Assembly: GCF_014526325.1 (NCBI RefSeq)
Contig: NZ_JACNMJ010000001.1
Location: forward strand, 248,001-312,000
Direction: 5' to 3'
Length of the DNA: 64,000 nucleotides
DNA from: Psychroserpens algicola
GTDB lineage: Bacteria > Bacteroidota > Bacteroidia > Flavobacteriales > Flavobacteriaceae
Numbering within the stretch: the first letter of the stretch is position 1; each line of letters starts with the position of its first letter. The notes under the pieces were generated by a model. The model was not told the DNA's origin. It worked only from the letters and a program-made list of their open reading frames with translations, and made no database searches. Below are positions 16,319 through 64,000 of the stretch, one piece after another. Both the position numbers and the translations under genes were made by a program.

Positions 16319-16323
16319 AGACT

Positions 16324-26437: not shown

Positions 26438-26545
26438 TATGTATATCGTAACAAAGGTTTACCTAACTATCAAAACTAATATATTGTCAACGATTAGTGA
26501 GAAAAAAACATGAAATTATAACAACTTTATAATTACTTCAATTTA

Positions 26546-27955: not shown

Positions 27956-28001
27956 ATAATTTATTTTTAGTTAGTTAGATGTTTGTTTGTTTGGGTATAA
28001 A

Positions 28002-29150: not shown

Positions 29151-29178
29151 AAACTAGTCATTTTAATTACTCAAACTT

Positions 29179-30552: not shown

Positions 30553-30562
30553 AGGGATAATA

Positions 30563-31843: not shown

Positions 31844-31867
31844 ATTATAAAATTCTTTAAAAAAAAT

Positions 31868-31904
31868 AAACTTCCAATACTTCGGTTAGAATTTTTGGAA
31901 GTTT
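31868..31904 (-). terminator. Intrinsic terminator/attenuator between the aldolase gene and rhaI
   Basis: AAACTTCCAA (31868-31877) pairs with TTGGAAGTTT (31895-31904); on the minus strand the stem is followed by a T-rich tail (TTTATTTTTTTT region, about 31858-31869). It lies inside unit A after the aldolase gene. It probably lowers, rather than stops, transcription into rhaI, since no clear promoter is seen between it and rhaI. Confidence 0.65.
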
Positions 31905-31943
31905 TCTTTAACTAAACTAAACAAATATGTTCTTTTAATATTA

Positions 31944-40679: not shown

Positions 40680-40700
40680 TTCATTTTATAACGAGCTACT

Positions 40701-42107: not shown

Positions 42108-42122
42108 TTCATGATGTTTTTT

Positions 42123-46293: not shown

Positions 46294-47820
46294 TTACCTA
46301 TCAGCTCCAATAGCCCGCACTGGTTTATTTTCTTCTCCATTTACACGAGTCTTTTGCTCTACAAAATAAGGTTGAAATGTATAGTTAGATTCTGAATCCC
46401 ATTTTGAATTCACCTTTGGTAAGAGTACTTTTAATGCTTCTATCTCACTTTTATACTTGGGATTATCAGCTTCATTATGCCATTCATTCGGGTCTACGCT
46501 GTGGTCGTAAAATTCTTCTTTACCATCTTCATAGCGAATGTATCTGTAACCATCTTTTTTAATGGCATGATTGTTCATCCCAAAGGTTGTAATGGCATAA
46601 CTTTCATTTACCCCTTCATTTTTTTGCATCAGACGTGCTAAACTTGTTCCTTCATTTTTAGAATAGGCTGGCAATCCGCTTAATTCCAAGAGTGTTGGAT
46701 AGATGGAAAGCATCTCTACTGGAGCATCTATCTTTTTCCCTTTAGGTAAATTAGGTCCTGCAAACAATAAAGGTGCTTGAGTAGCAGTTTCCCAAAGGGC
46801 ATGTTTTGCAAAAGTACCTTTTTCGCCCAATCTGTAGCCATGGTCTGACCATAATACAATCAGCGTATTATCGGCATATTTACTTTGTTTTAAAGCATCT
46901 AAAATACGACCTAGTTCATAATCAACATAACTCATACACGCTAAATACGCTTGAATAATTTTTTTCCATTCGCCATTGTCTTTGGCCCATTCTGTGGATG
47001 GCATCATTGGTAAGTCGTTGATTTTCAAACCTACTGGTGGAATATCATTTAAATCGCCTGCTAAATATGGTGGTGTTTCTATACTTTCTAAAGGATGCAT
47101 ATCAAACCATTTTTGAGGCACATAAAGCGGCACATGCACACGTAAAAACCCAAGTCCTAAAAAGAATGGTCTATCATAATTTCTGTGTAATCGTTCTATT
47201 GCCCAATTTGCTGAAGCATGGTCTGGCATTAATGAATCTTGTTCAGGAAAAGCGCCCCAATCAGTGTTTGTTCTTCCATGAATGCCTTTTATTCCATTAC
47301 CTCTACCGTCCCAAACAAAACGCTTTTTAGGATGTGGTCCAAAACCTTTTACGCGTCCTCCAGATTCATTAAACATACTATCTGGTGCATGTACATGAAA
47401 TAATTTGCCAATACCCATCGTATGGTAGCCATTTTCTTCGAAATATTCTGGAAGGAAGGTAATATCCTTGGTTGCTGGATTGCCATTACGACGTATTTTA
47501 TTATCAGGCGTCATCCCATAAATACCTGTTGTTGATGGACGTAAACCTGTCATAACTGATGCCCTGGATGGTCCACAAAGTGGTGCTTGCACATGCGCAT
47601 TAGTAAAGGTTACACCCATTTTTGCCAACCTCTCAAAATTTGGGGTTATAACGTTCGAAAAATTATCAATAGGACTAATCCAATTGTTTAAGTCGTCAAC
47701 AGAAATAAACAATACGTTTGGCTTTTCATTTTCTGTTTCAGCAGGCGTTGATTTTTCATTTTTACATGAAAACATCAGTAGTATCAAAAATATGAAGCCT
47801 ATGTTTTTCATAATTACCAA
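46294..47820 (-). CDS. S1 family sulfatase lipoprotein (CGPSR motif)
   Basis: Sulfatase of 508 aa, last gene of unit C. The maturation motif is CGPSRASVMTGL with Cys82. Metal segments are FISVDDLNNWISP and LWSDHGYRLGEKGTFAKHALWE. The stretch FLRVHVPLYVPQKWFDMHP matches the iduronate-2-sulfatase-like group seen elsewhere in this PUL. The lipobox is at LMFSC (Cys19). Met4 could equally be the start. It begins 3 bp after the stop of the preceding sulfatase. Substrate position is not readable from the sequence. Confidence 0.9.
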   Translation of the reverse strand: MVIMKNIGFIFLILLMFSCKNEKSTPAETENEKPNVLFISVDDLNNWISPIDNFSNVITPNFERLAKMGVTFTNAHVQAPLCGPSRASVMTGLRPSTTGIYGMTPDNKIRRNGNPATKDITFLPEYFEENGYHTMGIGKLFHVHAPDSMFNESGGRVKGFGPHPKKRFVWDGRGNGIKGIHGRTNTDWGAFPEQDSLMPDHASANWAIERLHRNYDRPFFLGLGFLRVHVPLYVPQKWFDMHPLESIETPPYLAGDLNDIPPVGLKINDLPMMPSTEWAKDNGEWKKIIQAYLACMSYVDYELGRILDALKQSKYADNTLIVLWSDHGYRLGEKGTFAKHALWETATQAPLLFAGPNLPKGKKIDAPVEMLSIYPTLLELSGLPAYSKNEGTSLARLMQKNEGVNESYAITTFGMNNHAIKKDGYRYIRYEDGKEEFYDHSVDPNEWHNEADNPKYKSEIEALKVLLPKVNSKWDSESNYTFQPYFVEQKTRVNGEENKPVRAIGADR

Positions 47821-47823
47821 TTA

Positions 47824-49164
47824 CTATTCTGTTCTAAATGCTTCAATTTTTTGATTCAGTTTTTCGACCAATTCAGGATTACTGCTCGCAATATTTTGTT
47901 TCTCAAAAGGGTCTTCATCAATATTAAATAATTGAATTTTTTCGTTTGGTTTTCTAACCGCATCAGGCACAATCAATTTATATGGTGGCGCAATTACTAT
48001 AGTGTAAAACAAACTAGACTCTATAGTCGTAAAATCGTGTGCGTAGATTTCTCCAAAAATCTCTTCTCTATTCTGAAGTGTTTTTTTGTCTAAAACATTG
48101 ATGCCTGGTAAGTTTTTAGGTTTATCAATATTCAAAATATCTAGAACTGTTGGCACCATATCAATACTACTTACAACAGTCGTCGTATCCATCTTAGGCT
48201 TAATTTCTCCTGCCCATTTATACATAATAGGCGTACGCATTCCCAAGTCGAAAGGCGAGCGCTTTGATATTTCATTATACTTGCTATCATTTAAATTTTG
48301 CACCCAACCATTATCACATACATAAACAAAAAGGGTGTTTTCAGTTAACCCTTTTTCTTCAATAATATCGAATAATTCGCCACAAGTTTCATCAAACCAT
48401 TCGCACATGGCCCAATACTTGGCAACATATTCTGTAGGTGCTTTTGGAAGATATTTATCTAACAAACGTTTTGGCGGTGTATGTGGTGCGTGTGGTAAAA
48501 AAGGTGCATACCATAAAAAGAACGGCTTTTTTTCTTTAATAGCTAAATCCACGTAACTGGTTAAAGTATCCATTCCTTTTCGTCCAATTTCTAAACCATA
48601 ATCACCATGACGACCTCCACGATTTGGATCTCCATGAGTCATTCCATAATCAAATCCACCAACTTTATGATTACCATGCCACCATTTACCAGTTTGAAAC
48701 GATAAATACCCTTTTTCTTTCAGTAAATCAGGCAATGTCGTTAAACGCTCAAAATGAGTAATCATAGGCTTATAGGCCTCACTTCTATTCTTTCTCTTAA
48801 CTGCTCTATCTTTAGCCCTTTCATAAGCCACATCGTTTCCAAGGATGCCATGGTCTTTTGGATACATTCCTGTGATTATGGTTGCTAAGGATGGTGAACA
48901 TAAGGAAGTTGGCACATAACCTCTGGTGAATGTTAGACTTTCTGAAGCAAATTGATCTAGCCTAGGTGTTTCAATATTGTCATCTCCCATAAAACTGTAA
49001 TCGGTCCATGATTGGTCATCTGAAAGGATGAATACAATGTTAGGCAATTGCGACTCTTCAGCCTCTTTTTCGTCTTTATCTATCTTGTTTTTCGTCTCAT
49101 TTCCGCAAGAAAAACAAATGGCTGCAAGTATTATTAAACAACTTATATGGCTTAATCTCTTCAT
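47824..49164 (-). CDS. S1 family sulfatase lipoprotein with non-canonical CSPSL maturation motif
   Basis: Sulfatase-fold protein of 446 aa with lipobox Cys20 (ICFSC). Metal-binding segments are FILSDDQSWTDYSFMG and YVCDNGWVQNLNDSKYNEIS, where the usual DHG is DNG. At the maturation site the sequence is LCSPSLATIITGMYP: Cys89 is kept, but the Arg of the CxPxR signature is Leu93. The Arg normally contacts the formylglycine, so either this belongs to a sulfatase subgroup with relaxed motif or maturation differs. It lies 48 bp downstream of the BNR gene in unit C and next to a canonical sulfatase. The rest of the fold is complete, so I do not call it a pseudogene. Confidence 0.85.
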   Translation of the reverse strand: MKRLSHISCLIILAAICFSCGNETKNKIDKDEKEAEESQLPNIVFILSDDQSWTDYSFMGDDNIETPRLDQFASESLTFTRGYVPTSLCSPSLATIITGMYPKDHGILGNDVAYERAKDRAVKRKNRSEAYKPMITHFERLTTLPDLLKEKGYLSFQTGKWWHGNHKVGGFDYGMTHGDPNRGGRHGDYGLEIGRKGMDTLTSYVDLAIKEKKPFFLWYAPFLPHAPHTPPKRLLDKYLPKAPTEYVAKYWAMCEWFDETCGELFDIIEEKGLTENTLFVYVCDNGWVQNLNDSKYNEISKRSPFDLGMRTPIMYKWAGEIKPKMDTTTVVSSIDMVPTVLDILNIDKPKNLPGINVLDKKTLQNREEIFGEIYAHDFTTIESSLFYTIVIAPPYKLIVPDAVRKPNEKIQLFNIDEDPFEKQNIASSNPELVEKLNQKIEAFRTE

Positions 49165-49212: not shown

Positions 49213-50637
49213 CTACTCATCTTCATTTTTTAAAACCTGTGCTTCATTTTCATTACGCATCACAGCTCCATTATCTCCTAAGAGGTACATCTTTCTGAAA
49301 TCTGATCCTTCATCTTTTTCTCCAACAATCAGTCTAGCATCAGGATGCGGATTATCAATTAGAGAAGATATCACAAATCCTGAGTTCTTTCGACTTAAAA
49401 GGACAGGTCCTTTATTAAAGGTTTTTCCAGCATCAGAACTGTCCCATCGACTTATTTCTCCCACACCATCGTTGGTCTGGCTTTCTAGATATAGGCTTAC
49501 TTCTGTGTCTGATTTTACGTCGAAAACACCATCCCCTTTCGGAAGATTAGAAGTGTCGCTTTTTAACCAGACCTGTCCATCCCATCTAAAATGTTGCATA
49601 CGTTTTGGGCCACTTCTGTTGGCTCCTACGTCTGGACCAACCAAGACCCCTACATTTGGATTACCATCTGGGTCTACGTCTGTTATCGCCTGAAACGTCC
49701 AATCATCAGCGATAATACTCACTAAGGCTTTTTCATCTGCCAATTCCTTGGTTAAAGGCATTGCTAAAGGTTCGTTTTTTACGTTTTTCCATTGATTGGT
49801 TTTGGTATCAAAAACCATGTAATAAAGGTTATGCCGTTCTGGAATATGCCCTCGTTCGTCCTGAGTGTTATTTCTATCTCTACAAATATGATAATCGAAT
49901 GCCACAATAATATCGTCTCCATTACCTCTAGTCACCCAAGGATACCAAGAATCTTCAGCTAATATATCTATTCTGCGTTTGTGTTTTAGAAATGAAACGG
50001 GTTCGCCGAAAGTGACACCATTGTCGGTTGATTTTTGATACACCCAATTACTTCGATGTGCTCCGTGACGATAAAATAAATACATATCGCCATTATCCAT
50101 TTTTATAAACTGACTGTAGGTGCCAAATACAGAAATATTATCCAGTGTTTCCCATTCAGAAATATCTAAAGGTGTTTTAGAAACGGCATGCAAGTTTTTA
50201 CCGTAATGGTAATTGCCTAAAGGGTTATCACCATCATCAGGTGTCCCACCATGACCTCCAAAAGCAATATGAATATAGTCCGCATCATCAATAAGGATAG
50301 CCGGTTTACCGTGATTATCTATTCGTTTTTTTCGATTTGGGTCTTTACCCATTTCGCTAATTCCCGCTTTATATGGGCCTTTCCATTCTTTAGTTTTATG
50401 GTTATATGACGCCACATAAGGGTCTTCTAAAGCACCTTGGTAAGCCACATAAGTAATGCCTTTATGGTAAATACCAGATGGATGTTGCACAATGGCCACC
50501 GCATTTCCAAAACCATTATCGGCAAAATAGTCCACCATTTGATGTTCTTCTGAGGTTGCTTTGGCATCTTTGGTTTTTGATGCACATCCTAAAAAGCAAA
50601 AACAAATCAAAAGAGTTTTAAAAACGTGTTTATTCAT
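49213..50637 (-). CDS. BNR_4-type beta-propeller lipoprotein, candidate PL24/PL25-like lyase
   Basis: Exported propeller protein of 474 aa starting at ATG 50637, where MNKHVFKTLLICFCFLGC gives a clean lipoprotein signal (Cys18) and a 7-bp gap to GH106. The longer frame from 50715 would add 26 residues without signal character and overlap GH106. Propeller features include HIAFGGHGGTPDDGDNPLGN, DMYLFYRHGAHRSNWVYQKS, TDNGVTFGEP and WDSSDAGKTFNKGP. Seven-bladed propellers with conserved His/Arg/Tyr in such loops form the ulvan lyase families PL24 and PL25, and BNR_4-type proteins include these. The gene is in unit C with rhamnose- and uronate-active enzymes. Lyase function is a reasonable but unproved guess. 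Confidence 0.75.
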   Translation of the reverse strand: MNKHVFKTLLICFCFLGCASKTKDAKATSEEHQMVDYFADNGFGNAVAIVQHPSGIYHKGITYVAYQGALEDPYVASYNHKTKEWKGPYKAGISEMGKDPNRKKRIDNHGKPAILIDDADYIHIAFGGHGGTPDDGDNPLGNYHYGKNLHAVSKTPLDISEWETLDNISVFGTYSQFIKMDNGDMYLFYRHGAHRSNWVYQKSTDNGVTFGEPVSFLKHKRRIDILAEDSWYPWVTRGNGDDIIVAFDYHICRDRNNTQDERGHIPERHNLYYMVFDTKTNQWKNVKNEPLAMPLTKELADEKALVSIIADDWTFQAITDVDPDGNPNVGVLVGPDVGANRSGPKRMQHFRWDGQVWLKSDTSNLPKGDGVFDVKSDTEVSLYLESQTNDGVGEISRWDSSDAGKTFNKGPVLLSRKNSGFVISSLIDNPHPDARLIVGEKDEGSDFRKMYLLGDNGAVMRNENEAQVLKNEDE

Positions 50638-50644
50638 AACCATT

Positions 50645-53600
50645 TTAAAGTTTAATGCTTTTATAAAATTGAATCTGTACAGGTCCCAAAAGTCCGGATG
50701 TTTTGAGTTCATCATTTTCGCTCCAATGTTTCCATGACGGAAACGTGGTTCTTTTACTAGGTCTTTCTGTATTATTGAGCAACCAATCGGGTAAATGTTT
50801 TATTTTATTGCCTTTACGTTCAAAATCTAATTCCAATTTTTCATCGCCAATTAATCGGTTTGGCCATAGGTTGGCTACTTTAATTTCAAGGGTGTTTTCT
50901 CCAGCTTTTACAACATCAGTAATGTCTATTGTGAATGGTGCTTTCCAGAGTATTCCTAATGTCTTACCGTTTATAATCACTTCGGCCATAACGGCTACAC
51001 TTCCTAAATCCAGTTCCAGTTTATTATCAGATTTTAAGTGTTTTTTAGACAATTTGAACGTCTTTTGATAATTCGCTGTCCCTGAAAAATACTGAATATC
51101 TTCATTTGAAGATTCTGACCAGGACATCAATTCATCGAACTTTAATTTAGTTTCTGAATTAGATGCCGATGGAAATGAAACGTCCCAAGCACCTGATAAC
51201 GTAATTGGCTCAGGCACAGATTTGACCTTAACAGTTTTGGTTTTTCCAGACGCACTTGTGCACATAAGATTGCCTGGATAAGGTGTCAACCATTGCCCTT
51301 TTCCTTTATTTAAAACTAACTCAGGTTTGCTGATGTTTTTTGAAAGATTTAAATATCTTCCCTTTGGAATGAACAACGTTTGTTCTTCACTATCTGTTAT
51401 AAAGGTTATTTTTATAGCCGTATTATCGCCTTCAGGTGTTTGCCCATCAATCAACTGATTGTTTACAGGAATACTGTATTCTTTTGAAGCTATCTTTTCT
51501 TTGATTTTATTGGTAACATCATAAACTGGAAAATATTTTGGTACGCCTTTAGTTTCTGGCTTAAATTTTCCAAAAACAGCTTTTAATACTTTTAGTTGTT
51601 TATCGCCTCCATCAATGTCAACAAACTCTTTTTCGCGAACATATTTGGTTTTTATCTCATTGCCAATTTGATATTCCATTCTGAATTCTTTTACATAACC
51701 CATTGCAGGGTCGCAATCACAAAAATGCCGTGTGGCTTGTATATGCAACTGATTGTCTTTTACCTCAGCAGCTACTTTATCTGTAATATCCACCACACCT
51801 TCTTGTAGAAATGTACCATATTCAGCTTTTATAATTTCTAAATTTGAAAGCGGTTCCAATTGAGGGTTTTCAATATCCATTTGTGCAGAAACCAAATGGT
51901 GTTTTGCTTTTGAAGCGTTCTTAAACACCACGAATACTGCTTCTTCTAAACCTAATTGAATTGGCAAACTTGTGGTACCATCTGTATGATTTTGCCATAA
52001 GGCTGGTTTTTTAATTTCGCCCGTTTGAGCATTCCAAAGTTCTGGCTGCTTTCCTGACACTCGAAAACGAACATCTATTTCCTGGCTTTCTTTTCTAGCA
52101 TTCGCGATAAAATAAATATCGGCTTCTTCGGTTTTTCTGTGCACGAAACTGATATCTGAAGCATCATCGCTTTCAATTTTAAAGTCAGGGGGTAATTGGC
52201 TTTGTTTTAAAAAATCTACTATCGAAATATCCTTTACTAATTCTTTAGTCCATAGTGAATTCGTTAGTTTTTCAACTTCCATATCGCATAAAGGGAAGTT
52301 TTCCAAACTTGGTGATTTTTCGGGCTTAGAGCCTATGACTTTTCCTCCATTCGTGACTAATTCTTGAATTTTTCGTAGTGTTTCAGGTTTAATCCAATCA
52401 GATTCAGGTAAGACTAAAACCTTATATTTTCCGCCAACAGGTGTACATATTTTTCCGTCTTTTACGAATACATCCGACAATTTATTAGAACCGATTAAAT
52501 CATAATCGTATCCCAAGTTCTTGATTTCGGGTAATAAAAAAGCGATATTGGGTGAAGATTCTCCCGTAAACACCAAAACATCGGCTACATTTCGACCTTG
52601 TTGAAGTAAAAACTGAGAACGTGCGATGTAATCCATAAAGCCTTTAGCTTGGCTCCACCAGGTATTTAATCGATTGAAATCAGTACCATGATAACTTAAG
52701 GCCAATCCTGGTGCCACGTCCCAAGGTTGGTGCACATAGGTGTGAAAAATAAAACGTGTGATGCCTTCTGCCCAAGCCTTATCGCCAATAGATTTGAGTT
52801 GCGCAGGATGATCATCCCAACCACCAATACCTGTAAACGATTCGGCTCCAACGATGGAACTTCCATTTAAATGTGCAATAGAGGATACGAACTTAGGCGA
52901 ATCAAAAAACGGATAGCCTCCACTCCAAAACTCACACATTACAATATCTCCAGTCGCACCAACTTGCATATTATCAAACGGTCCCCAATAGGGTTCTACT
53001 GAAAATTTCAATCCATTTTTATGGCATAACGCTCCAAAATGTGCGTAATAATTTTCAGCTATTAAATCACCAATAGTTCTCCTAAAATCCCAGAGAAAGC
53101 GTTCTGTAACTTCGCCACTTTCAACATAATAACCTGCTAAAGTTGGCAAATATGTGGTTAAATCATAACCTCTTAATTTTTCGAATTCAGCATCAAAACC
53201 AGTAGTCCAATTTGTGGTTCCAACTTCATAACTATCAATCAAACAATTATTTACTGTAGTACCTACTAAATCTCCTAATGTATTAAGAATGGGTTGAATA
53301 CCACCTTCCCAGAAGACATCTACAGCCTTTTTACTCATTTTATCTACTTCAAGACCGCGTCCACTTTCTGGTGCTGGATGATTTGTTTTTCCTTTAGCTG
53401 TATGTCCTATTCTTAAAACAATCCATTCGCCTTGAGGCACATTCCATTCTATAAAACCGTCTTTGCTTAGTTTTGACGTTAAATCAACGATTTCTTCTTT
53501 ATTAATAAAAGCCGAAGTAGGAATGCCTTTTGTATCTGGTAATAAATGATTGCGAATACGTCCTGTAAGATTTTTATAATCTAATCCATCAATTTTTATA

Positions 53601-54136
53601 TCCACGTTTGGTTTAGGAAATGCTAGTACTGCAATATCTCTGTAATAGTTTAATTTGGTTTCGGGTTGTGGTAATTGGTCTTTAAATAATTTTCCACCTC
53701 GAACCATAACTTCGCTAAAAACCGTAGTTTGCATGGCATATTCTGGTGTCATCCAAGGTCCTCCAGACGATGACCAACCTGCGCTATTATGAAACGTCAA
53801 TTCTAAACCTAATCGTTTGGCTTCCTGTGCCGAAAATAAAAACAGGTCTAACCATTCTTCACTTAAATATTTTATTGAACCTTCTGGAAAACCTAAATGC
53901 ACATTAAACAATTGGGCTTCTTGAATGCCCACGTCTTTCATCGCCTCCAAATCTTTTGTGATTCCGGATTTAGAGACGTTACCACTAATCCAATGCCACC
54001 AAGTTCTTGCTTTGGCTTCGTTTGGTGGATTTTGAAATCCAGATTCTAATTCATCCATTATAGGTGAGTTTTGACCATGTACTGCTATGCTCAGCATAGC
54101 TAGGAAGAAAAAATTAAATATGATTATTTTTTTCAT
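50645..54136 (-). CDS. GH106 alpha-L-rhamnosidase
   Basis: Exported enzyme of 1163 aa, expected to cleave alpha-L-rhamnosyl linkages. The signal peptide covers about 1-22 (AVHGQ). The N-terminal TIM-barrel begins with the GH106 hallmark TWWHWISGNVSKSGITKDLE and AMKDVGIQEAQLFNVH, followed by LELTFHNSAGWSSSGGPWMT. Later beta-sandwich domains include GH2-like jelly-roll segments near the C-terminus (LDLGSVAVMAEVIINGKTLGILWKAPF, split here over two strands, then NLWPNRLIGDEKL). Length fits GH106 (about 1100 aa). It is 6 bp downstream of the PL8-like gene and 7 bp upstream of the BNR gene. Rhamnose release feeds unit A directly. Confidence 0.88.
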   Translation of the reverse strand: MKKIIIFNFFFLAMLSIAVHGQNSPIMDELESGFQNPPNEAKARTWWHWISGNVSKSGITKDLEAMKDVGIQEAQLFNVHLGFPEGSIKYLSEEWLDLFLFSAQEAKRLGLELTFHNSAGWSSSGGPWMTPEYAMQTTVFSEVMVRGGKLFKDQLPQPETKLNYYRDIAVLAFPKPNVDIKIDGLDYKNLTGRIRNHLLPDTKGIPTSAFINKEEIVDLTSKLSKDGFIEWNVPQGEWIVLRIGHTAKGKTNHPAPESGRGLEVDKMSKKAVDVFWEGGIQPILNTLGDLVGTTVNNCLIDSYEVGTTNWTTGFDAEFEKLRGYDLTTYLPTLAGYYVESGEVTERFLWDFRRTIGDLIAENYYAHFGALCHKNGLKFSVEPYWGPFDNMQVGATGDIVMCEFWSGGYPFFDSPKFVSSIAHLNGSSIVGAESFTGIGGWDDHPAQLKSIGDKAWAEGITRFIFHTYVHQPWDVAPGLALSYHGTDFNRLNTWWSQAKGFMDYIARSQFLLQQGRNVADVLVFTGESSPNIAFLLPEIKNLGYDYDLIGSNKLSDVFVKDGKICTPVGGKYKVLVLPESDWIKPETLRKIQELVTNGGKVIGSKPEKSPSLENFPLCDMEVEKLTNSLWTKELVKDISIVDFLKQSQLPPDFKIESDDASDISFVHRKTEEADIYFIANARKESQEIDVRFRVSGKQPELWNAQTGEIKKPALWQNHTDGTTSLPIQLGLEEAVFVVFKNASKAKHHLVSAQMDIENPQLEPLSNLEIIKAEYGTFLQEGVVDITDKVAAEVKDNQLHIQATRHFCDCDPAMGYVKEFRMEYQIGNEIKTKYVREKEFVDIDGGDKQLKVLKAVFGKFKPETKGVPKYFPVYDVTNKIKEKIASKEYSIPVNNQLIDGQTPEGDNTAIKITFITDSEEQTLFIPKGRYLNLSKNISKPELVLNKGKGQWLTPYPGNLMCTSASGKTKTVKVKSVPEPITLSGAWDVSFPSASNSETKLKFDELMSWSESSNEDIQYFSGTANYQKTFKLSKKHLKSDNKLELDLGSVAVMAEVIINGKTLGILWKAPFTIDITDVVKAGENTLEIKVANLWPNRLIGDEKLELDFERKGNKIKHLPDWLLNNTERPSKRTTFPSWKHWSENDELKTSGLLGPVQIQFYKSIKL

Positions 54137-54142
54137 TGCTTT

Positions 54143-56260
54143 TTATTCCTGTTTTTGTAATTCCAGTTGAACTGTTTTTCCTGCTTCATCACCTGTCGGT
54201 AACTGTAATGTTATCTGAGTTTTTCCGTTGACATATTGACTGCCATTTGCTTTATATTTACCAGAAATAGTTATGGTTATTTTAGTCAATTTGTGCGTTG
54301 GGTCACTTACTAATATTATGAGTTGATTTGCTTTTTCTTCTAACATCATCATGCAAGGTTGATTCACCGAAACACCTCCTTTTATACTTGATATTCCTTT
54401 TGAATAAAACACCATACCTGCCAATGTTCCATCCATGCTTTCAACAGATTGTAGCGCTTCATTATTCACGATTTTAAAAGGCTTATTTTTATTAAAATCC
54501 TTCAGTTTTGCTTCTGTTGCATTAGGCACCAAAATGTAATTGTATTTTTTATTTTTAGGTTGTTTACCATGAGTAAACCATAGTTTAAAAATATGTTCCG
54601 TTAGTATCACCGGACGATAACGTTTTGCAACTTTAGTCCAACTGCCTTCTAAAATATTTGTTGATAGATTTATGGTTCCTCCATTTGGAAATAAATAGCC
54701 TATGTTATCGTGTAGCAACCAATCGGGATTTATCTCTTTGTGTTTTCTTACATTAGTTTCTACTTCATCATCTTTTCCTATAACAACTCCTCCCCTCGCA
54801 AAGGCTTGATTTATGGCTGTCGTAACTGGATATTCTGTATTTGCTGAAATTCCACTTCCCAAACACACAATTTTATCATCAAACATAAACCATGATTTTT
54901 TAGCCTTTAAACCATCACGATTATAGTCCATTGCAGCAATTCCATTTTCTCCATTACTAACACCACCAACAAAAACACTATTGGTTTTAAAGTCACTAAA
55001 TTTTATAATTGGTAAAGGTTTGTTATCTTGAATAATTGTAGTTCCTGGTAATTTTTTCCAATCCCAAAACGGAAAGATATTTTCATATTCCTTTCCACTA
55101 ATGGATAGCAGCGATACACCATCACCCAAATAATAACCTTGAATATTTTCTTGATTAACCGATTCAGTTCCAACCACGCGTGTCGAACTCATTTTAACGG
55201 AAAAGTAAAAATCTTTTGTTCTGTGTACTTGAAAATCGGATTTCCAGAAATGTTTGTTTCCTGATAGAATTTTTGAAACTAAAGCATCATCATATACTTT
55301 TGAATGTGCTTTATCCAAGACCTTCATTTTATGAATACATGCTTTTAAACGTGATGCTTTTTTAGCTTGTTCGTTTTCAAAAAGTTGTCTGCCAGATGCG
55401 CTTATATCATAGGTGTCATCCCATAATATCCATTGCTGACCTTTAAGGATAATGTTTCTTAAAAATTCAATTTTGTTGGCTTCAAAATGATATGGTGTGT
55501 CGTGAACAAATGAGTAACACTTTATCATATCTTCTAAATACGACAGACCGTAATTACCAAATTGCAGTTGTGCGCCATGTTCGTGATACGACCAATCTGG
55601 TTTTACGCCAACACCTTTTGCTATTTGTAATTCGTTTTGAATGGCTTTACTTGCAATAGCCACAGAATCTGGTTTTCTTAACAACAGTGAACGCAACATG
55701 ACGTTGGTAGATAACCATACTTTATTCTGCCCAGACATTTTTATTTTAGCACGATCAAGCAATACTTTAGCTTTTTTAAACTGCTTTTCACTTAACTCTG
55801 CTTCCATTAAAAAAAGTGTCGGCAATAATAGCTCTGGCACTCCAATATGTTGATCGTGCCAATTGGTGCTTAAAAAATCATTATCTAACCAATAATTTAA
55901 ACTTTTATGGATTTTTTTTGAGAGATTATTATTCAGATAATATTTAGAATCTTTGTTCTTGTAATTGATAGCTAAGGATTGAACATGCTTTAAATGATTT
56001 TTCACAGGCCATCCACCTCTAATTTTATTAGAATAATCTATGGTTGCCCATGAGCCATCTTCCTGAAAATTTTGCAATAATTCTTCAATAGTATCATCAT
56101 CATTTTCTTGATTCAAATAATATTCTATAACGTTATTATGAAGTTGTTTTAATTCCTTTGGATACAGAAATTCTGAACCATTACTTGTACCTGAATTATC
56201 ACAACTACATATTATAACTGAAATAAACGCAATACAAAAATGGATAAGATTTGACTTCAT
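54143..56260 (-). CDS. PL8-like polysaccharide lyase lipoprotein
   Basis: Protein of 705 aa with the layout of PL8 lyases (hyaluronate, chondroitin AC and xanthan lyases): an (alpha/alpha)-toroid (about 35-340) followed by a beta-supersandwich (about 355-705). Lipobox Cys20 (VIICSC). Likely catalytic residues sit in TNWHDQHIGVPELLLPTL (Asn133), STNVMLRS (Asn186), DWSYHEHGAQLQFGNYG (His228, Tyr237) and ISASGRQLF (Arg291), which match the PL8 Asn/His/Tyr/Arg set. Substrate would be a uronic-acid-containing chain. PL8 is not, to my knowledge, an established ulvan lyase family, so its place beside rhamnosidase and sulfatases is notable. It is 38 bp downstream of the PF05426 lyase in unit C. Confidence 0.75.
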   Translation of the reverse strand: MKSNLIHFCIAFISVIICSCDNSGTSNGSEFLYPKELKQLHNNVIEYYLNQENDDDTIEELLQNFQEDGSWATIDYSNKIRGGWPVKNHLKHVQSLAINYKNKDSKYYLNNNLSKKIHKSLNYWLDNDFLSTNWHDQHIGVPELLLPTLFLMEAELSEKQFKKAKVLLDRAKIKMSGQNKVWLSTNVMLRSLLLRKPDSVAIASKAIQNELQIAKGVGVKPDWSYHEHGAQLQFGNYGLSYLEDMIKCYSFVHDTPYHFEANKIEFLRNIILKGQQWILWDDTYDISASGRQLFENEQAKKASRLKACIHKMKVLDKAHSKVYDDALVSKILSGNKHFWKSDFQVHRTKDFYFSVKMSSTRVVGTESVNQENIQGYYLGDGVSLLSISGKEYENIFPFWDWKKLPGTTIIQDNKPLPIIKFSDFKTNSVFVGGVSNGENGIAAMDYNRDGLKAKKSWFMFDDKIVCLGSGISANTEYPVTTAINQAFARGGVVIGKDDEVETNVRKHKEINPDWLLHDNIGYLFPNGGTINLSTNILEGSWTKVAKRYRPVILTEHIFKLWFTHGKQPKNKKYNYILVPNATEAKLKDFNKNKPFKIVNNEALQSVESMDGTLAGMVFYSKGISSIKGGVSVNQPCMMMLEEKANQLIILVSDPTHKLTKITITISGKYKANGSQYVNGKTQITLQLPTGDEAGKTVQLELQKQE

Positions 56261-56298
56261 ATTATTGTGTTTTCTAAAACAATTTTAAATTCAATAAT

Positions 56299-57486
56299 TT
56301 AGTTTTTAACCTCATTTTTTTGGTTTAATAAATGAAGTGCTTCATCAAAAGATGTTTCTTTCAATGTTTTACTCACATAATTTAAATCAGCGACTAATTT
56401 CTCTTCGGAACTCTTTATACTGGCAATTTGCTTGTACTCCCATTCTTTTTCTTTAGTGAGATAAGGTACCATATATTGATAGCCCTTCTTTATACTTCTG
56501 CCATCTTCTGACTCAATATTCCATAAATCAATTCCTACTTTTTGTCCTATACGCACCAATTCCATAAACCCATGTAAATTCATAGTTGAATATGAAAAGG
56601 ATTTGGTTCTTTTGAGTTCTCTTGGTTGACTTCCATCTGGTTCAATTTGACTAAAGATTCTTGCCTTTGTTACGGTAGACAGATGGTTTTTGACCTCATC
56701 TGCTCTATTGAGATATAATAGTATATTAAGCAATTGAATATCATAATGCGTTCCGTGATTATTTTCTCTTGTGGCTTCTTCCTTACCTAATTCACTGTTT
56801 TGCAACCAATCGGCGTATTCTGACAACCATGACTCCATACCTTTCTTCGTTTCATCGTCAAGTTGATTTCTATCTTCTAATACCTCTAAGCATTTAAGGA
56901 CTTCAACTAAACCACCAAACTCAATAATGCCAAAACATCGTCCATCATTTTTCCCTGGTATAGATTGGCCATAATTAAGATTGGGATTCATTTTGGTATC
57001 CGCATCTAAAAACCAAATATTAATTAATTCTACAGCTCTATTTGCATAGCTTATATTATCGCTTAAATAATAAGCATTACTTAAGTCTCTAATTGCTCGT
57101 AGAAAGTTTTCGTTCTCAACAAAATCAGTATAATTGTTTCTTGTCTCCGGATTTATTTCACCGTCTTTTCTTATATATGGTAATCCGTCTGCTGTCTCAG
57201 GATTAGGCCACCAATAAGGCCCAATACTCATATAATCGTGTTTGCTTTTACTTGGTGGAATACCTACTTTATTTACAACAGAAAACGTTTTACCTTTCAG
57301 TAAATTATCTGCTTTCTTGATTAGTTTCTTATAATTATCAACGGCTTTCTTATTGCCCTTGTTAATCAGATTGTTTTGACTCTCTAGTTTCTGATAGTCT
57401 ATGACTCTTACTTTCTTTGAAGTTTCTTGCGCAAAATTACAACCCAAAAAGCCTATTAGGCATAAGACTAATATTTTTTTAATCAT
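56299..57486 (-). CDS. Alginate_lyase-domain (PF05426) lipoprotein, PL38/PL5-like
   Basis: Exported (alpha/alpha)-toroid protein of 395 aa with lipobox Cys16 (IGFLGC). The diagnostic segment is HDYMSIGPYWWPNP (83-96), with NYGQSIPGKNDGR, ENNHGTHYD (Asn243, His244) and PRELKRTKSFSYS (Arg293, Tyr299) as the likely catalytic groove. PF05426 contains PL5 alginate lyases and PL38 glucuronan/alginate lyases. Beta-glucuronate cleavage would fit a rhamnose- and glucuronate-containing polymer. It overlaps the GH59 fusion gene by 8 bp, indicating tight co-expression in unit C. Exact PL family and substrate are not decided. Confidence 0.75.
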   Translation of the reverse strand: MIKKILVLCLIGFLGCNFAQETSKKVRVIDYQKLESQNNLINKGNKKAVDNYKKLIKKADNLLKGKTFSVVNKVGIPPSKSKHDYMSIGPYWWPNPETADGLPYIRKDGEINPETRNNYTDFVENENFLRAIRDLSNAYYLSDNISYANRAVELINIWFLDADTKMNPNLNYGQSIPGKNDGRCFGIIEFGGLVEVLKCLEVLEDRNQLDDETKKGMESWLSEYADWLQNSELGKEEATRENNHGTHYDIQLLNILLYLNRADEVKNHLSTVTKARIFSQIEPDGSQPRELKRTKSFSYSTMNLHGFMELVRIGQKVGIDLWNIESEDGRSIKKGYQYMVPYLTKEKEWEYKQIASIKSSEEKLVADLNYVSKTLKETSFDEALHLLNQKNEVKN

Positions 57487-59797
57487 TGTCTATTATTTCT
57501 AAATTATCAAAAAGATTCCCGTGATATGAACTAGCAAAAGCAACGTAACCATTACTAACGATATGAGTTGCTTGGGTAATAGATTTGTTATCAACAAAAA
57601 CTTCGACGTCTTTATCTTGAAACCTTATTTTTAATTGGTGCCAAATATTTCCATCAAAACCGTTAATATTTCCTTTGGTCAACGTTTTTTTATTATACAT
57701 TAACTTCCAATTTCCACTTCTTTCAATCAAAAATCGATAACCGTTCAAAAAACTTCCTTTTACACGTCCGCCTAATTCCACATTTCCATTTTCAATATAA
57801 ATGTCTGCACTACAGGTGAAATTTTTCCAATTAACGTCTCCTATTAAAGTGTGCGGTTTTATATTAGTTCTTCGGTAAATTCGCATCCAGTCATAACCTG
57901 GTTCTGGCGCAATTTGTTTTAAGCAATTGGTGCCATCTTCTTTTAAAGCGATTTCAAAACTTCCTTTTTGATCTGAATGATACTTTGGTAAGTCACCAAC
58001 TTTTCTATCCTCGTAATCTTCTTTATATGGAAATGGAAATGCTTTAGATTCAGGAATCTCATAAGCTCCTTTTTGTTGACCAGTTGTTGTGGTTAAGGAA
58101 TAAATGCTTTTGGCATCAAGTTGTATCGCAAATGAACTTCTTTCTGGGATGATACTTGCTAACTCTACAAATTGATTTTCTGCATCCGATTTCCAAACAT
58201 AAATCTTGTCGTCTGCTAAGCCCTTTTTAATTTTCACCTCTAAAGTTTCTGCATTTTCAGTACAAATAATCATACTCCAGTTTGTACTGTTCTTATCTTT
58301 CAAAGTAACAACACTTCCTTTATATGTTGATGCATCAAACAATCCACAGGCTTTGTCTAAATATTGCCATTTGTGTGGCGTTGCAAATTGTGTAGTATGC
58401 GCTGTTGCCCAAATTGTTGGCCAAACCTTATAATATCCACTCCAAGGTTCATTGGCTTTCATTGCGCCTGCCTTATCCCATGTTACAGATTTATATACTG
58501 AGCCAATAGGCGCCCAAATCATTGATTTTGTAATTTCATCTCTAATGTAAAATTTATTGTATAGTCGTGCTAAGTTGAGTGCTCCAGCACCATCCCAATC
58601 TTTGCCTGTCCAGCTCCAATCTTCGCTTGCCCAAAGTGGTTTTCCCGATTGTTTTGCTTTCTCTGTGGTTGGGCGTCCACGACCATCTACCATATTTTCA
58701 GTAAATTCTCTACCGGAAACATAGTGATAACCTACTGCTTCAATGACGTCATCAAACTCACTATCTTTTTCTAAGTCGTCAAATATTTTCCAGTCACCAC
58801 TGTTATCATCAGGGCCTTGAATTTTTACGTTTTGATAACCACTGGCATCTAAAGTTGGTCTCATATGGTTTACTAACCAATCACGATCAGTATCATTTTC
58901 ATTTTCTGCGGCTGCCACCCAATCTATATCTAAATCCCACTGTTTTTTTGCCACATCTAAAAAGGCTACAAAATACTCAGCGGATTCTTGCGTGTAAATG
59001 TTTGGTTTTAACCACCCAGGAAAACTCCAAGGCAGATACTCAAGAATCATATCTGGATTTCGATTTTTGGCTTCTCTCATCAACCAGAACTCATATCCTC
59101 GAGAAACTGGATTTTTCAATTCTTCTCTCGTAAAAGCATGTGAGGGTTCTGATCCACAAGTAGAATTTTCTCCTCCACCCATTTCAACTTTTAAATGTTG
59201 AAAACCAGCACCAAATTTAGGCTTGAATAAAAGGTCTAAAATTTCACCTCTTATCGGGTCTTTATAATCATATAATAAGTCTGTTGAAGCACCTGCACTA
59301 ACCGCTCCAACACCTTCAAAAGTTCTCCCTTTATCTTTACTGTTTATATGGATTTTTATGACACCTTTTCTAGATTTAGAAAACACATAAGGTTGAAATG
59401 CTTTTTCAGGATTTTCTATTTCTCCCATTTCAAACCAAGACACTTCACTATGCACTGCGCCTCGGTTATTTCCCCAAATGGTAACTTTCCAGTACACGCG
59501 TTGTCCGTTTTTTAAAGGTGCTCCTGAATACTGTATGACACTAGATTGTGATGAACTGGTTGGTCCTGAATCCCAAAGATCTGGATATTTTAATTTTTCG
59601 GATGAAGTTGCCATTACAATTCTATAACCTCCTTGTTTAGGACTTTTTGCATCACCTATAAAAGTCCAACTAAAATGGGGTTTATTAATAGTTATACCTA
59701 TTGGATTAGTTTTTGATTCACATTTCAAATCTTTTACCTCCATAGCATAGGTATTTGAACACATAAAAAATATAAAACATACTATTTTGTTCATCAC
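57479..59797 (-). CDS. Fusion: GH78-type N-terminal domain plus GH59 (galactocerebrosidase-like) glycosidase
   Basis: Exported protein of 772 aa (signal peptide about 1-18). Residues 19-126 are the immunoglobulin-like N-terminal domain normally seen in GH78 alpha-L-rhamnosidases (VKDLKCESKTNPIGITINKP, GYRIVMATS, DLWDSG, GQRVYWKVTIWG, SWFEMG). No GH78 catalytic barrel follows. Instead, residues about 155-560 match GH59: GRTFEGVGAVSAGASTDLLY, EYLPWSFPGWLKPNIYTQES, WVAAAENEND (acid/base candidate Glu300) and LWASEDWSWTG (nucleophile candidate Glu392). The C-terminal lectin-like sandwich of GH59 (about 590-772) is present. Known GH59 enzymes are beta-galactosidases/galactocerebrosidases; here a beta-linked sugar of the polysaccharide is a likely target. 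It lies 115 bp after GH2 and overlaps the lyase gene by 8 bp. Confidence 0.8.
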   Translation of the reverse strand: MMNKIVCFIFFMCSNTYAMEVKDLKCESKTNPIGITINKPHFSWTFIGDAKSPKQGGYRIVMATSSEKLKYPDLWDSGPTSSSQSSVIQYSGAPLKNGQRVYWKVTIWGNNRGAVHSEVSWFEMGEIENPEKAFQPYVFSKSRKGVIKIHINSKDKGRTFEGVGAVSAGASTDLLYDYKDPIRGEILDLLFKPKFGAGFQHLKVEMGGGENSTCGSEPSHAFTREELKNPVSRGYEFWLMREAKNRNPDMILEYLPWSFPGWLKPNIYTQESAEYFVAFLDVAKKQWDLDIDWVAAAENENDTDRDWLVNHMRPTLDASGYQNVKIQGPDDNSGDWKIFDDLEKDSEFDDVIEAVGYHYVSGREFTENMVDGRGRPTTEKAKQSGKPLWASEDWSWTGKDWDGAGALNLARLYNKFYIRDEITKSMIWAPIGSVYKSVTWDKAGAMKANEPWSGYYKVWPTIWATAHTTQFATPHKWQYLDKACGLFDASTYKGSVVTLKDKNSTNWSMIICTENAETLEVKIKKGLADDKIYVWKSDAENQFVELASIIPERSSFAIQLDAKSIYSLTTTTGQQKGAYEIPESKAFPFPYKEDYEDRKVGDLPKYHSDQKGSFEIALKEDGTNCLKQIAPEPGYDWMRIYRRTNIKPHTLIGDVNWKNFTCSADIYIENGNVELGGRVKGSFLNGYRFLIERSGNWKLMYNKKTLTKGNINGFDGNIWHQLKIRFQDKDVEVFVDNKSITQATHIVSNGYVAFASSYHGNLFDNLEIIDND

Positions 59798-59912: not shown

Positions 59913-62900
59913 TTAATCTACAAACAACTCGTCAATAAAAGGACCACTTTTACCTGTCGTTTCTAATTTTATACTATTAGCACCTGCTTTTAATGTGATT
60001 ATAGCGGGCACAAATTTCCACTCTTTTTCCCAACCACCAGTTGTCTTAAATTCTAATGTTCTGATGTATTCGTCATTGACGTACAATTTCATAGGATGTA
60101 ATTCTCCTTCATTGTTATGCATGTAGCGAAAACGAATACTATAATCGCCTCCTTCGCCGTCATTTTCTTGATAAAACTCTAAAGAACCTTCTTTTCCATC
60201 AAAGCGTACAAATCCTGTTCCCTTGTAACGTCGCGCTTCTGTACTTGCCTTTGCTCCACCTTCTAAGATGCCTTCTTCTGCAGAAATATTGATTCCTCTA
60301 CCAATCCACATATCTTTAGAATGTTCGTCGCCCCAAAACAAACCTCCATTTTTTCCGAAAGCTTCTTCCATTTTTAAAACAGTCTTACCATTTTGTATAA
60401 CAACAGCTTTTACTGTGGTGCCATCTGAAACCTCAAACTGACCTTTGTAAACGGCACCATTTGTTTCAGGATTATCGCCATTGACTGTATATAGAATTTC
60501 TAAATTATCAACATTTGAATTTCCTAAAACTTGAATCTGTTTGGCGTCAATGGTGATTATATTTGAAGTATATAATGCTTTATCACCTAAAATTGATGCC
60601 CTGATAATCGAAGCCGCTTTAGCACTGGGTAATTCTCTTAGGAATAGTCTTGTTTTTCCAAAAAATAAGGCTCTATAATCTGATTTTGTTCGACTAGTAG
60701 AATCAATAGGATTTCCATTTTCCATGGAAATCTTCTTCACATCACCTTGAATATTATAATAAACTCTGTTTTCTCCGTAAGGGTATAAATTATTGTTTTC
60801 GTCTAAACTTTCTGAGGTGATAATATGACTTGTGGTAAAACTATCTTCAGCTTCTAATTTCTGAATTGTTGTTTTTAATTTTGAAGGTTGTTTACTTGTT
60901 GAAAAAGAGGTGCGTTTGACTTCCTTGCCATCGTTATAAGCTACGGCTTCTAGTTTTCCTTCTTCATAAGGCACTAGCCATTCGCATTGCATTTCGTTCC
61001 AAATGATTCCTGATTGGTCTTTTCCTAATGATTTTCCATTTAAAAACAACTCTACTTCATCAGCATTAGAATACACCCAAACCGGAATAACCGTTCCCTT
61101 TTTCATTCTTGGATGCGTCCAATGTGGTAACATATGAATCATTGGTTCTTTGGTCCATTGACTTTGATAGAAATAGAATAAATCTTTTTTGAATCCAGCA
61201 ACATCTAAAGCACCACCCATAAATAAATTGAACGGTAAACCTCCATGTACTAAACCAGCTTCTCCATAATAGTCAAAACCTGTCCAACGAAAATGACCAC
61301 TATGCCATGGGTTATCTCTCATGACTTCCCAATATTTTCTTGCCGACACTCTTACCGTTGCATTATCATATGACGAATTGAAACTTTGCTTTCTGTTTCT
61401 CCAGTTTTTAGGATTAATGCCTTCATAAAAGAAAATCTCTTTTTCTGTTAGATTTGGCAAATCATACGTACCAGGCAACTCATTATCACGCCACCAAGTT
61501 TGGGTGCGGTAATAACCTCTAGTTTGCCAGGTATGTGGTGCTTCCGTTGAAATAAATGGTTTCTCTAATTTTTTGCCATTCATCCCATCTATAAACGATT
61601 TGGTTTCAGAACCTCCATTAACGCCTAAAATATCCATGTCTTCTGGATTTCCTGCGCCTGAGGTAAATAATCGTGTTGGGTCTAATCGTTTACCAAATTT
61701 CACCAATTCCGGCGCCACATCGCTATGTGTTTCATTGCCTAAACTCCAGACAAAAATACTTGGGTGATTTCTATCTCTGGTTATCCACTCTGTTACATCA
61801 CGTTGCCACCATTCATCAAAAGCTTGCTTGCCATAATCTTGAGGTGCTTTTTTATGCCAACCATCAAATATTTCGTCCATAACGAGCAAACCGATTTCGT
61901 CGCAGATATCATAAAACATTGGTGGTGTTGGATTGTGTGATGGACGAATGGCATTGATTCCCATATCTTTTAAGGATTGAAGTTTCCAACGCAACATCGG
62001 TTTTGTCCAAGCTCCTCCAACTGGACCACCTTCCCAATGTTCGCAAACCCCTTTTAATTTTACATTTTCACCATTCAACCAAAAACCAGTCTCAGTCTTC
62101 CATTCTACGGTTTTGAAACCAAAAGTCGTTTCTACCTCATCTATAATTTTTTTTCCATTTAAAATTTGAGTCACAGCCATGTACAAACTTGGACTTTCTG
62201 GACTCCAAAGTTTTGGGTTCTCTATTTCGAATTGATAAGTTGGATTGAATACTTTTAATTGTTCACTTTTACGAGTTAATTCGTTTCCTTCTGGTGACAA
62301 TAATTTTACCTCATAATTAAGGTTCTTTATGTTGCCGTTAATTTCTGCATCAATGTTCACAATTGCATTTTTATTGGAAATTGAAGGTGTTTTAATAAAA
62401 ATACTGTTTGGTTTAAAATGTGTTGGGTTAACTTCTATTAGTTTTACTTGTGCATACATTCCACATGGATGATACCAACGAGCTGAAGGCTCTAAACTAT
62501 TATCAACTCTTACGGCAATTGTATTTCTTCCTGCTTTTAAATGCTTAGAAATATCGTATCTAAAACTGATGTAGCCATATGGTCGTTTTCCTAAATGGTT
62601 GCCATTGACCCAAACATCGCTGTTCATATAAACGCCATCAAAATTGATGTAGGTGATGCTAGAAAGACTTGTTTTGTTGACATCAAAAGATTTACGATAC
62701 CAACCAATACCACCATCGTGATAACCACCACCTTGACCTTGGTCTCCACCTTTCCGCACGCCTTTTTCAAAGGACCAATCGTGTGGTACGTTTAATGTTG
62801 TCCAAGATGAATCGTCGATGTTTTCTTGTGAAAAATTGGCGTTATCCTCTAAAATAAATTGCCAATTATTATTGAAATTTGTTACAGACCGCTGCGTATA

Positions 62901-62957
62901 AACAAGATTTACACCTATGAATAAAAATAGAAGTAATAGCGGTTTTTTTCTTTTCAT
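59913..62957 (-). CDS. GH2 beta-glycosidase with C-terminal CBM-like domain
   Basis: Exported GH2 enzyme of 1014 aa, first gene of unit C. The signal peptide covers about 1-21. The N-terminal sugar-binding domain (DVWVNGNHLGKRPYGYISF), an immunoglobulin-like domain and the TIM-barrel are complete. The acid/base is Glu409 in WSLGNETHSD and the nucleophile is Glu472 in KPFISTEAPHTW. After the barrel come a DUF4982-like segment (about 620-690), a chitobiase-type beta domain (about 795-855) and a CBM6/35-like beta-sandwich (about 885-1014, ending GPFIDELFVD). Beta-galactosidase, glucuronidase or xylosidase-type activities all occur in GH2; the substrate cannot be fixed here. The shared promoter box lies 53-68 bp upstream. 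Confidence 0.88.
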   Translation of the reverse strand: MKRKKPLLLLFLFIGVNLVYTQRSVTNFNNNWQFILEDNANFSQENIDDSSWTTLNVPHDWSFEKGVRKGGDQGQGGGYHDGGIGWYRKSFDVNKTSLSSITYINFDGVYMNSDVWVNGNHLGKRPYGYISFRYDISKHLKAGRNTIAVRVDNSLEPSARWYHPCGMYAQVKLIEVNPTHFKPNSIFIKTPSISNKNAIVNIDAEINGNIKNLNYEVKLLSPEGNELTRKSEQLKVFNPTYQFEIENPKLWSPESPSLYMAVTQILNGKKIIDEVETTFGFKTVEWKTETGFWLNGENVKLKGVCEHWEGGPVGGAWTKPMLRWKLQSLKDMGINAIRPSHNPTPPMFYDICDEIGLLVMDEIFDGWHKKAPQDYGKQAFDEWWQRDVTEWITRDRNHPSIFVWSLGNETHSDVAPELVKFGKRLDPTRLFTSGAGNPEDMDILGVNGGSETKSFIDGMNGKKLEKPFISTEAPHTWQTRGYYRTQTWWRDNELPGTYDLPNLTEKEIFFYEGINPKNWRNRKQSFNSSYDNATVRVSARKYWEVMRDNPWHSGHFRWTGFDYYGEAGLVHGGLPFNLFMGGALDVAGFKKDLFYFYQSQWTKEPMIHMLPHWTHPRMKKGTVIPVWVYSNADEVELFLNGKSLGKDQSGIIWNEMQCEWLVPYEEGKLEAVAYNDGKEVKRTSFSTSKQPSKLKTTIQKLEAEDSFTTSHIITSESLDENNNLYPYGENRVYYNIQGDVKKISMENGNPIDSTSRTKSDYRALFFGKTRLFLRELPSAKAASIIRASILGDKALYTSNIITIDAKQIQVLGNSNVDNLEILYTVNGDNPETNGAVYKGQFEVSDGTTVKAVVIQNGKTVLKMEEAFGKNGGLFWGDEHSKDMWIGRGINISAEEGILEGGAKASTEARRYKGTGFVRFDGKEGSLEFYQENDGEGGDYSIRFRYMHNNEGELHPMKLYVNDEYIRTLEFKTTGGWEKEWKFVPAIITLKAGANSIKLETTGKSGPFIDELFVD

Positions 62958-63084: not shown

Positions 63085-64000
63085 TTATCTTCTTGGCTGA
63101 TCATTTTGCGAAAACGGTTGACCCCTAGGAAACTGTTCTTCTAATAGTTTTTTCAGTTTCTTTTCTATTTTTTGATGCGTTTTATTTCCTGATAAATTAA
63201 CATAAGCTAACAAACTATTTTGATGCTCATAGAGTTCTGCTTCTAATATTTCATTCGTTACAGAATCTCTCCATTCGGTATATCTCCAGTTACCATCAGT
63301 AACTGTACAACCCATTATTTTTTTACCTCTCGCATAAACACTAAATGCTGCTTCATCCCATTTTTTATTGGGTTTATCAATAACCGAAAGAAAACTTTTG
63401 CCGTCAGAATCTGGTCCTTCCAAACCGCAATACTCAACTAGCGTAGAAAAGATATCCACATTTTCTATTAAAGCATCAGAAGTTTTACCAGTTACTCTTT
63501 TTTTATAGCTCGTTTCTCTACTAACAATTAAAGGCACTCTAACATCTATTTCTAAATTAGATTGCTTACACCATAACGCGTATTCCCCAATTTTATAACC
63601 ATGATCGCTCATAAAAATCACCATCGTATTTTTTCTTAAATCTAGCTTTTCTAAGGTTTCCATGACTTTCCCTACTTGTGCATCTATGTAACTGATTGAA
63701 GCATGATAACCATGTATTAACTCTCGCGTTAAATTATCATCTAAATCACCTTCTTTAGGAATTCCGTGATAGCTTTTTAATTCTCCCCATTTCGGAAGTG
63801 CCAACCTGTAAGCGCCTTCTGGTTTTTGCCTTGATGGAATTTTAAAATCATTTTTATCATATAAATCCCAGTATTTCTTAGGTGCATTATAAGGCAAATG
63901 TGGTTTACTTAAACCTACAAACATTATAAAATTATCGTCTTTTACCTTGTTTAAAGTTTCGATGGCATAATTAGCTGCACGTCCGTCTTTATAGGCGTCG
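63085..64000 (-). CDS. S1 family sulfatase, iduronate-2-sulfatase-like (C-terminal part; 5' end beyond window)
   Basis: The frame stays open from the stop at 63085 to the window edge, so the Met at 63924 is internal. Upstream codons read [20 protein letters not shown], a continuous sulfatase sequence. The visible 305 residues include [20 protein letters not shown] and the second metal segment [20 protein letters not shown], both as in iduronate-2-sulfatase-like S1 enzymes. The maturation Cys motif lies outside the window. The gene ends 60 bp before the distal edge of promoter C, so the two are separate transcription units, or this unit reads through promoter C. Confidence 0.88.

Follow-up and report, generated by a model that had tools for sequence, protein, structure and literature searches.

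Glycoside hydrolase family 59 (GH59) is known mainly for galactocerebrosidase (GALC), the enzyme lost in Krabbe disease, and the alpha-L-rhamnosidases from Streptomyces avermitilis (3w5m, 3w5n) and Dictyoglomus (6i60) belong to family GH78. In PMC4445328, the active-site residues of GALC are named, with their roles, as G48, T93, W135, N181, E182, E258, S261 and R380. Among ulvan loci, GH106 together with polysaccharide lyase (PL) family PL25 has been reported from Pseudoalteromonas (PMC13050008). Here we describe a protein of Psychroserpens algicola in which a rhamnosidase-type immunoglobulin-like (Ig) domain is joined to a GH59 barrel and a lectin domain. Its gene lies in a 64,000-nucleotide stretch, hereafter the window (positions 248,001 to 312,000 of the forward strand of contig NZ_JACNMJ010000001.1, assembly GCF_014526325.1), and its features are as follows.

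57479..59797, minus strand: Ig-GH59-lectin protein; GTG as first codon, ATG as codon 2, 771 aa
59423..59737, minus strand: Ig_Rha78A_N domain (PF25788), residues 21-125, Pfam 2.1e-27, found in the same place by the genome scan
58388..59320, minus strand: GH59 catalytic barrel (PF02057), residues 160-470, Pfam 1.3e-111
57494..57973, minus strand: GH59 C-terminal lectin domain (PF21708), residues 609-768, Pfam 1.2e-12
58898..58900, minus strand: E300 (772-aa numbering), aligned with the acid/base E182 of GALC
58622..58624, minus strand: E392 (772-aa numbering), aligned with the nucleophile E258 of GALC
58664..58714, minus strand: Arg-rich loop shortly before the nucleophile in sequence, residues 362-378 in 772-aa and 361-377 in 771-aa numbering; three of its Arg are shared by 31 of 31 clade members

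The open reading frame (ORF) encodes 772 aa from the GTG; since codon 2 is an ATG, the real protein probably has 771, and its N-terminus suggests that it is secreted. An earlier note on this DNA had proposed that a GH78-type N-terminus of about 125 residues precedes a GH59 catalytic part, with a GH59 match expected within residues 155-560, and both assignments held. The Ig domain scored 95.9 bits against a Pfam cut-off of 27.4, and the barrel was matched over the full profile (1-294 of 294) at 373 bits against a cut-off of 27; together with the three Pfam E-values, these scores rule out a weak or chance match. In a sequence search of the PDB, the body of the protein retrieved GALC (3zr5/4ccc, 1.6e-78), to which the barrel and the domains behind it can be aligned along most of the chain (∼40% identity, 497 aligned residues), whereas residues 24-126 retrieved the rhamnosidase 3w5m (1.4e-14) and residues 14-133 retrieved 6i60 (2.9e-13). 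Two NCBIfam rhamnosidase models also matched the first 130 residues alone, far under the cut-offs for whole rhamnosidases. Unlike those rhamnosidases, the protein gave no Pfam match to the 6-hairpin catalytic domain PF17389 or to Bac_rhamnosid_N, and because PF17389 is missing it is not a GH78 enzyme. The agreement between Pfam domains, PDB relatives and the fold matches given below indicates that the fusion is real. Compared to GALC, it has an additional N-terminal Ig domain, lacks the R380 loop, carries a different Arg-bearing loop, and is found in a bacterial ulvan locus rather than in the lysosome.

Fn3 and Ig modules are common in secreted glycosidases, and the protein might for that reason be an ordinary GH59 enzyme with a generic Fn3 spacer, superficially similar to GH78. 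We regard this as highly improbable. A model of the Ig domain built on 35 rows reached a predicted local distance difference test score (pLDDT) of 92.7, and in a fold search of the PDB it retrieved 3w5n, 3w5m and 6i60 at a TM score of 0.88 (33-35% identity) and 6gsz at 0.74. The five best matches represent three proteins, all of them alpha-L-rhamnosidases, which argues against a generic Fn3 domain; Fn3 domains followed at E-values of 7e-3 or worse. The curated Rha78A model points the same way, and so do the four GH59s available from outside the clade, none of which contains the domain (L028, L029 and L068 by the Ig profile, L078 by Pfam). L078, an actinobacterial protein from Kitasatospora, resembles ours in combining a GH59 barrel with a lectin domain, but its C-terminal domain is a ricin trefoil. 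The structure prediction that the earlier note had called for thus confirmed the Ig domain; the whole-protein AlphaFold model made with 21 close relatives was poor (pLDDT 53.3) and was not used.

The architecture is not a peculiarity of one genome. Genome contigs scanned with exact peptide patterns of the query yielded 26 loci from 11 named marine or related genera, with best-segment identities of 70-91%, and the Ig domain is present in all 26. Exact patterns favour close relatives and could miss Ig-less sister proteins, a bias from which the Pfam scans of family, phylum and class genomes are free. Among 397 Flavobacteriaceae genomes, 13 contain a GH59 at E ≤ 1e-30, and 12 of these carry the Ig domain, the exception being L068. 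In 395 genomes of the phylum, PF02057 was matched in 71 at E ≤ 0.001, but only three (our own, L028 and L029) reached 1e-80 or better; the other 68 had nothing better than 2.2e-16 and were taken as other glycosidase families, probably GH30. A class sample of 395 genomes returned the same three at E ≤ 1e-30, and our own genome has a single GH59 match. Altogether, 38 fetched loci contain an Ig-GH59 gene (our own, 26 relatives and 11 from the family scan, some species twice), corresponding to 31 distinct sequences. The earlier note knew of no described enzyme with this domain order. Literature searched under GH59 or galactocerebrosidase indeed yielded no description of it, nor of a role for GH59 enzymes in ulvan digestion, although papers that word the family differently would escape such a search. 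Any idea of a one-off is contradicted by these numbers. The Ig-GH59 frame at L013:9779-12259 is ∼50 residues longer at its N-terminus, probably just upstream open frame.

Both trees are consistent with a single, conserved clade. In a GH59-core tree of 14 of the 31 distinct members and five outgroups, the clade was set apart with 100/100 support; the outgroup branches are very long, and we use only this split. A tree of 60 Ig domains (114 columns) placed the 31 distinct GH59-borne domains on one side of a long branch, again with 100/100 support, and on the other side 28 domains labelled GH78 and one from an S1-GH78 fusion. Identical domains, our own copies held twice and ORFs under 240 aa were left out of this tree, which does not resolve the GH78 group that gave the domain, and the GH78 labels rest on length and motif, 8 of the 28 having been scanned with Pfam. 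The fusion is therefore conserved and probably of single origin. In alignment A1 (21 rows of clade members) the Ig domain is conserved at 72.9%, compared to 68.9% for the beta-sandwich and 68.1% for the lectin domain; it is thus as well conserved as the other beta domains of the enzyme and belongs to it firmly, unlike a loose linker, and a structural role is proposed. As for its origin, a GH78-type rhamnosidase, perhaps encoded in a locus of this kind, may have supplied the Ig domain as a scaffold in a single event, after which it was retained. The other four Ig domains above cut-off in our own genome belong to three GH78s and one S1-GH78 fusion within ∼50 kb of the GH59 gene, and a sixth PF25788 match falls below the cut-off; outside this genome, the PF25788 search covered the fetched loci.

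The catalytic part can safely be read as a predicted retaining glycosidase of GH59. The carboxylates named in the earlier note, Glu300 and Glu392, align with E182 and E258 of GALC and are invariant across the 21 rows of A1. Of the eight GALC residues, seven (G48, T93, W135, N181, E182, E258 and S261) are identical, among them the galactose contacts G48, T93, W135, N181 and S261. Two further GALC residues, H237 and W291, are identical as well, and Y303 is Trp; W528, another candidate contact, was dropped because an Ala stands at that number in the numbering applied. S261 is kept here but is replaced by P, V and G in three Ig-less GH59s (in another alignment, by a gap in place of the G). With seven of the eight residues of the -1 site in place, beta-galactosidase chemistry is the simplest guess, and the new activity suggested in the earlier note is not established.

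Gene content indicates that the protein is encoded in an ulvan locus; the sulfated rhamnose polymer proposed in the earlier note would accordingly be ulvan. Ulvan lyases (PL25, a Uly1040 relative, two PL28s) and S1 sulfatases are both present. The genes around the GH59 gene, all on the minus strand, are:

56299..57486, minus strand: alginate-lyase-fold gene (PF05426), closest solved relatives 3nfv and the 8bdq/9fi1 group
54143..56260, minus strand: PL8-type lyase, chondroitinase AC-like
50645..54136, minus strand: GH106 alpha-L-rhamnosidase-type gene
49213..50715, minus strand: PL25 ulvan lyase relative (5uam, 5.7e-153)
46294..49164, minus strand: two S1 sulfatases
43614..46169, minus strand: GH39-like protein with a secretion tail
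39210..43607, minus strand: three S1 sulfatases
36684..39188, minus strand: Uly1040 relative (solved protein 9vtk, 5.1e-183), which we take to be a PL40 ulvan lyase
25310..34049, minus strand: FGE sulfatase-maturation gene, a gene without Pfam match, FMN dehydrogenase, FGGY kinase, a gene with a sub-threshold isomerase-barrel match, and an aldolase-dehydrogenase fusion, presumably for sulfatase maturation and rhamnose catabolism
59913..62957, minus strand: GH2 gene, the upstream neighbour of the GH59 gene, many of whose closest solved relatives are named beta-galactosidase, with 3gm8, a 'candidate beta-glycosidase', as the nearest
63085..63999, minus strand: S1 sulfatase truncated at the end of the window; the complete gene is at L075:4085-5542

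The alginate-lyase-fold gene overlaps the end of the GH59 ORF by 8 bases. Upstream, the GH2 and sulfatase genes are followed by a GH115_C-like gene, two GH78s, a BNR_4-trefoil lyase-like gene and another sulfatase, and further on, among other genes, by GH3, GH5, another GH78, two PL28s, GH106, GH88, GH3, GH43 and the S1-GH78 fusion; of these, the two PL28s, GH88, GH43, GH3 and the S1-GH78 fusion lie just beyond the window. SusD genes are found further upstream than this gene run (C8:365032 and C8:369900). The set resembles PUL H of Formosa agariphila, for which PMC8511951 lists PL28, a Uly1040/PL40-like enzyme, GH2, GH39, GH3, GH43, a GH88/105 type, GH78, S1 sulfatases and an S1-GH78 fusion; the passages covered name no GH59, PL8-like, alginate-lyase-fold, GH106 or PL25 enzyme for PUL H.

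Several neighbours deserve a record of their own. The PL8-type and alginate-lyase-fold genes (54143-57486) sit within the ulvan locus, and to our knowledge such enzymes are not standard for ulvan. A 638-aa protein without any Pfam family (L076:14506-16422, minus strand) adjoins a PL28 in our own genome, and 10 of the 26 GH59 loci contain a counterpart, conserved at 55-85% over ∼640 residues; a role in ulvan breakdown, for instance as a dehydratase like P29_PDnc, is possible. The chain at L077:8970-12497 (minus strand) unites an S1 sulfatase, an Ig_Rha78A_N domain in the middle and GH78, and P36 of F. agariphila likewise joins S1 and GH78. The ulvan gene run also includes DUF1501 and PSCyt1/PSCyt2/PSD1 genes (L076:10117-14452, minus strand), which are of types known from Planctomycetes. 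Elsewhere in the window, a GH31 gene (1983-4370), a SusC-like/SusD pair (13415-17922) and a GH13 protein (20942-23869) apparently form a separate alpha-glucan locus beside the ulvan one.

The association extends to other genomes. PL28 occurs in 11 of 12 Ig-GH59 genomes and in 8 of 385 others (Fisher p ∼1e-15, relatedness ignored; the GH59 and PL28 scans were taken as the same 397 genomes from their equal size and shared handles). Within fetched flanks of up to 10 kb on each side, some of them shorter, a rhamnosidase-type gene was present in 23 of the 26 relatives, an S1 sulfatase in 18 (one judged by the S1-GH78 reference alone), and an ulvan-lyase relative in 17 (L015 and L024 only by BNR_4 references).

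Taking these observations together, we tentatively prefer, at somewhat less than even confidence, a secreted retaining exo-glycosidase that acts on ulvan or ulvan-bound oligosaccharides and removes a beta-D-galactosyl or galactose-like residue from their ends. In this scheme the anomeric carbon would be attacked by E392, with E300 as acid/base, and the trimming would open these chains to the rhamnosidases and lyases of the same locus. Two observations make us lean to beta-galactosyl-like residues: the galactose site is conserved, and a GH2 gene of beta-galactosidase type adjoins the GH59 gene in our own genome and in 7 of the 26 relatives. A number of observations weigh against this proposal. 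Ulvan as described in PMC8360166 is composed of rhamnose, glucuronic acid, iduronic acid and xylose, without galactose, which leaves two options for the substrate, minor beta-galactosyl residues or a shifted specificity for an anionic ulvan unit. The GH2 neighbour carries little weight, since the ulvan locus of F. agariphila likewise names a GH2 (P17_GH2; PMC8511951). R380, a galactose contact of GALC, falls on a gap in the alignment, but it does so in L028, L029 and L068 too and is therefore a mark of GALC and not of the family. An anionic substrate could suit the almost unchanging loop with its three Arg instead. PL28 is missing from one Ig-GH59 genome (G754), no ulvan-lyase relative was found in the fetched flanks of 9 of the 26 loci, and in Seonamhaeicola aphaedonensis (L021) the gene lies next to cell-wall genes (penicillin-binding protein and RodA/FtsW), with no ulvan-lyase, S1 sulfatase or rhamnosidase-type partner recognised in the flanks.

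The second option, retaining exo-cleavage of a canonical anionic unit of ulvan (beta-D-glucuronic acid, sulfated beta-xylose, or alpha-L-iduronic acid on Rha3S), in which the Arg loop would bind carboxylate or sulfate where GALC uses R380, appears doubtful to us. It would account for the loop, in which R362, R372 and R374 (771 numbering) are identical in 31 of 31 members, 13 of 17 positions are invariant in 21 rows, and the stretch exceeds that of GALC in length and has a sequence unlike those of four other bacterial GH59s; the absent R380 loop and an ulvan context in which galactose is not described fit as well. However, all seven other named GALC residues are kept, the locus offers other candidates for uronate and xylose (GH39, GH3, GH43, GH88, GH115_C-like), and the loop is little more conserved than the whole barrel (91.3% against 88.0% identity in A1). 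The stretch is occupied by residues in L028 and L078 as well, and, as the whole-protein model is poor, the loop is placed near the active site from sequence only. Quite unlikely, in our view, is that the enzyme is merely co-located with ulvan genes and acts on a companion green-algal polymer, for example an arabinogalactan-like or galactose-bearing wall component. The galactose-type active site, the beta-galactosidase-like GH2 neighbour and the non-standard PL8-like and alginate-lyase-fold neighbours would suit such a substrate, whereas the strong co-occurrence with PL28, the rhamnosidase-type genes nearby and the adjoining gene that overlaps the GH59 ORF by 8 bases speak against it.

We also consider it unlikely, if somewhat less so than a companion polymer, that a GH59 lineage left galactose altogether, the rhamnosidase-type Ig domain and Arg-rich loop having adapted a GALC-like enzyme to retaining exo-cleavage of a sulfated or uronic unit of ulvan. 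If true, such a lineage would represent a step of ulvan breakdown found described nowhere in the literature searched. The Ig-GH59 protein is a conserved fusion whose family and kind of locus are both known, and this conserved bacterial branch of GH59, mostly found beside ulvan-lyase and rhamnosidase genes, points to an undescribed galactose-bearing part of ulvan or to a new specificity in GH59.

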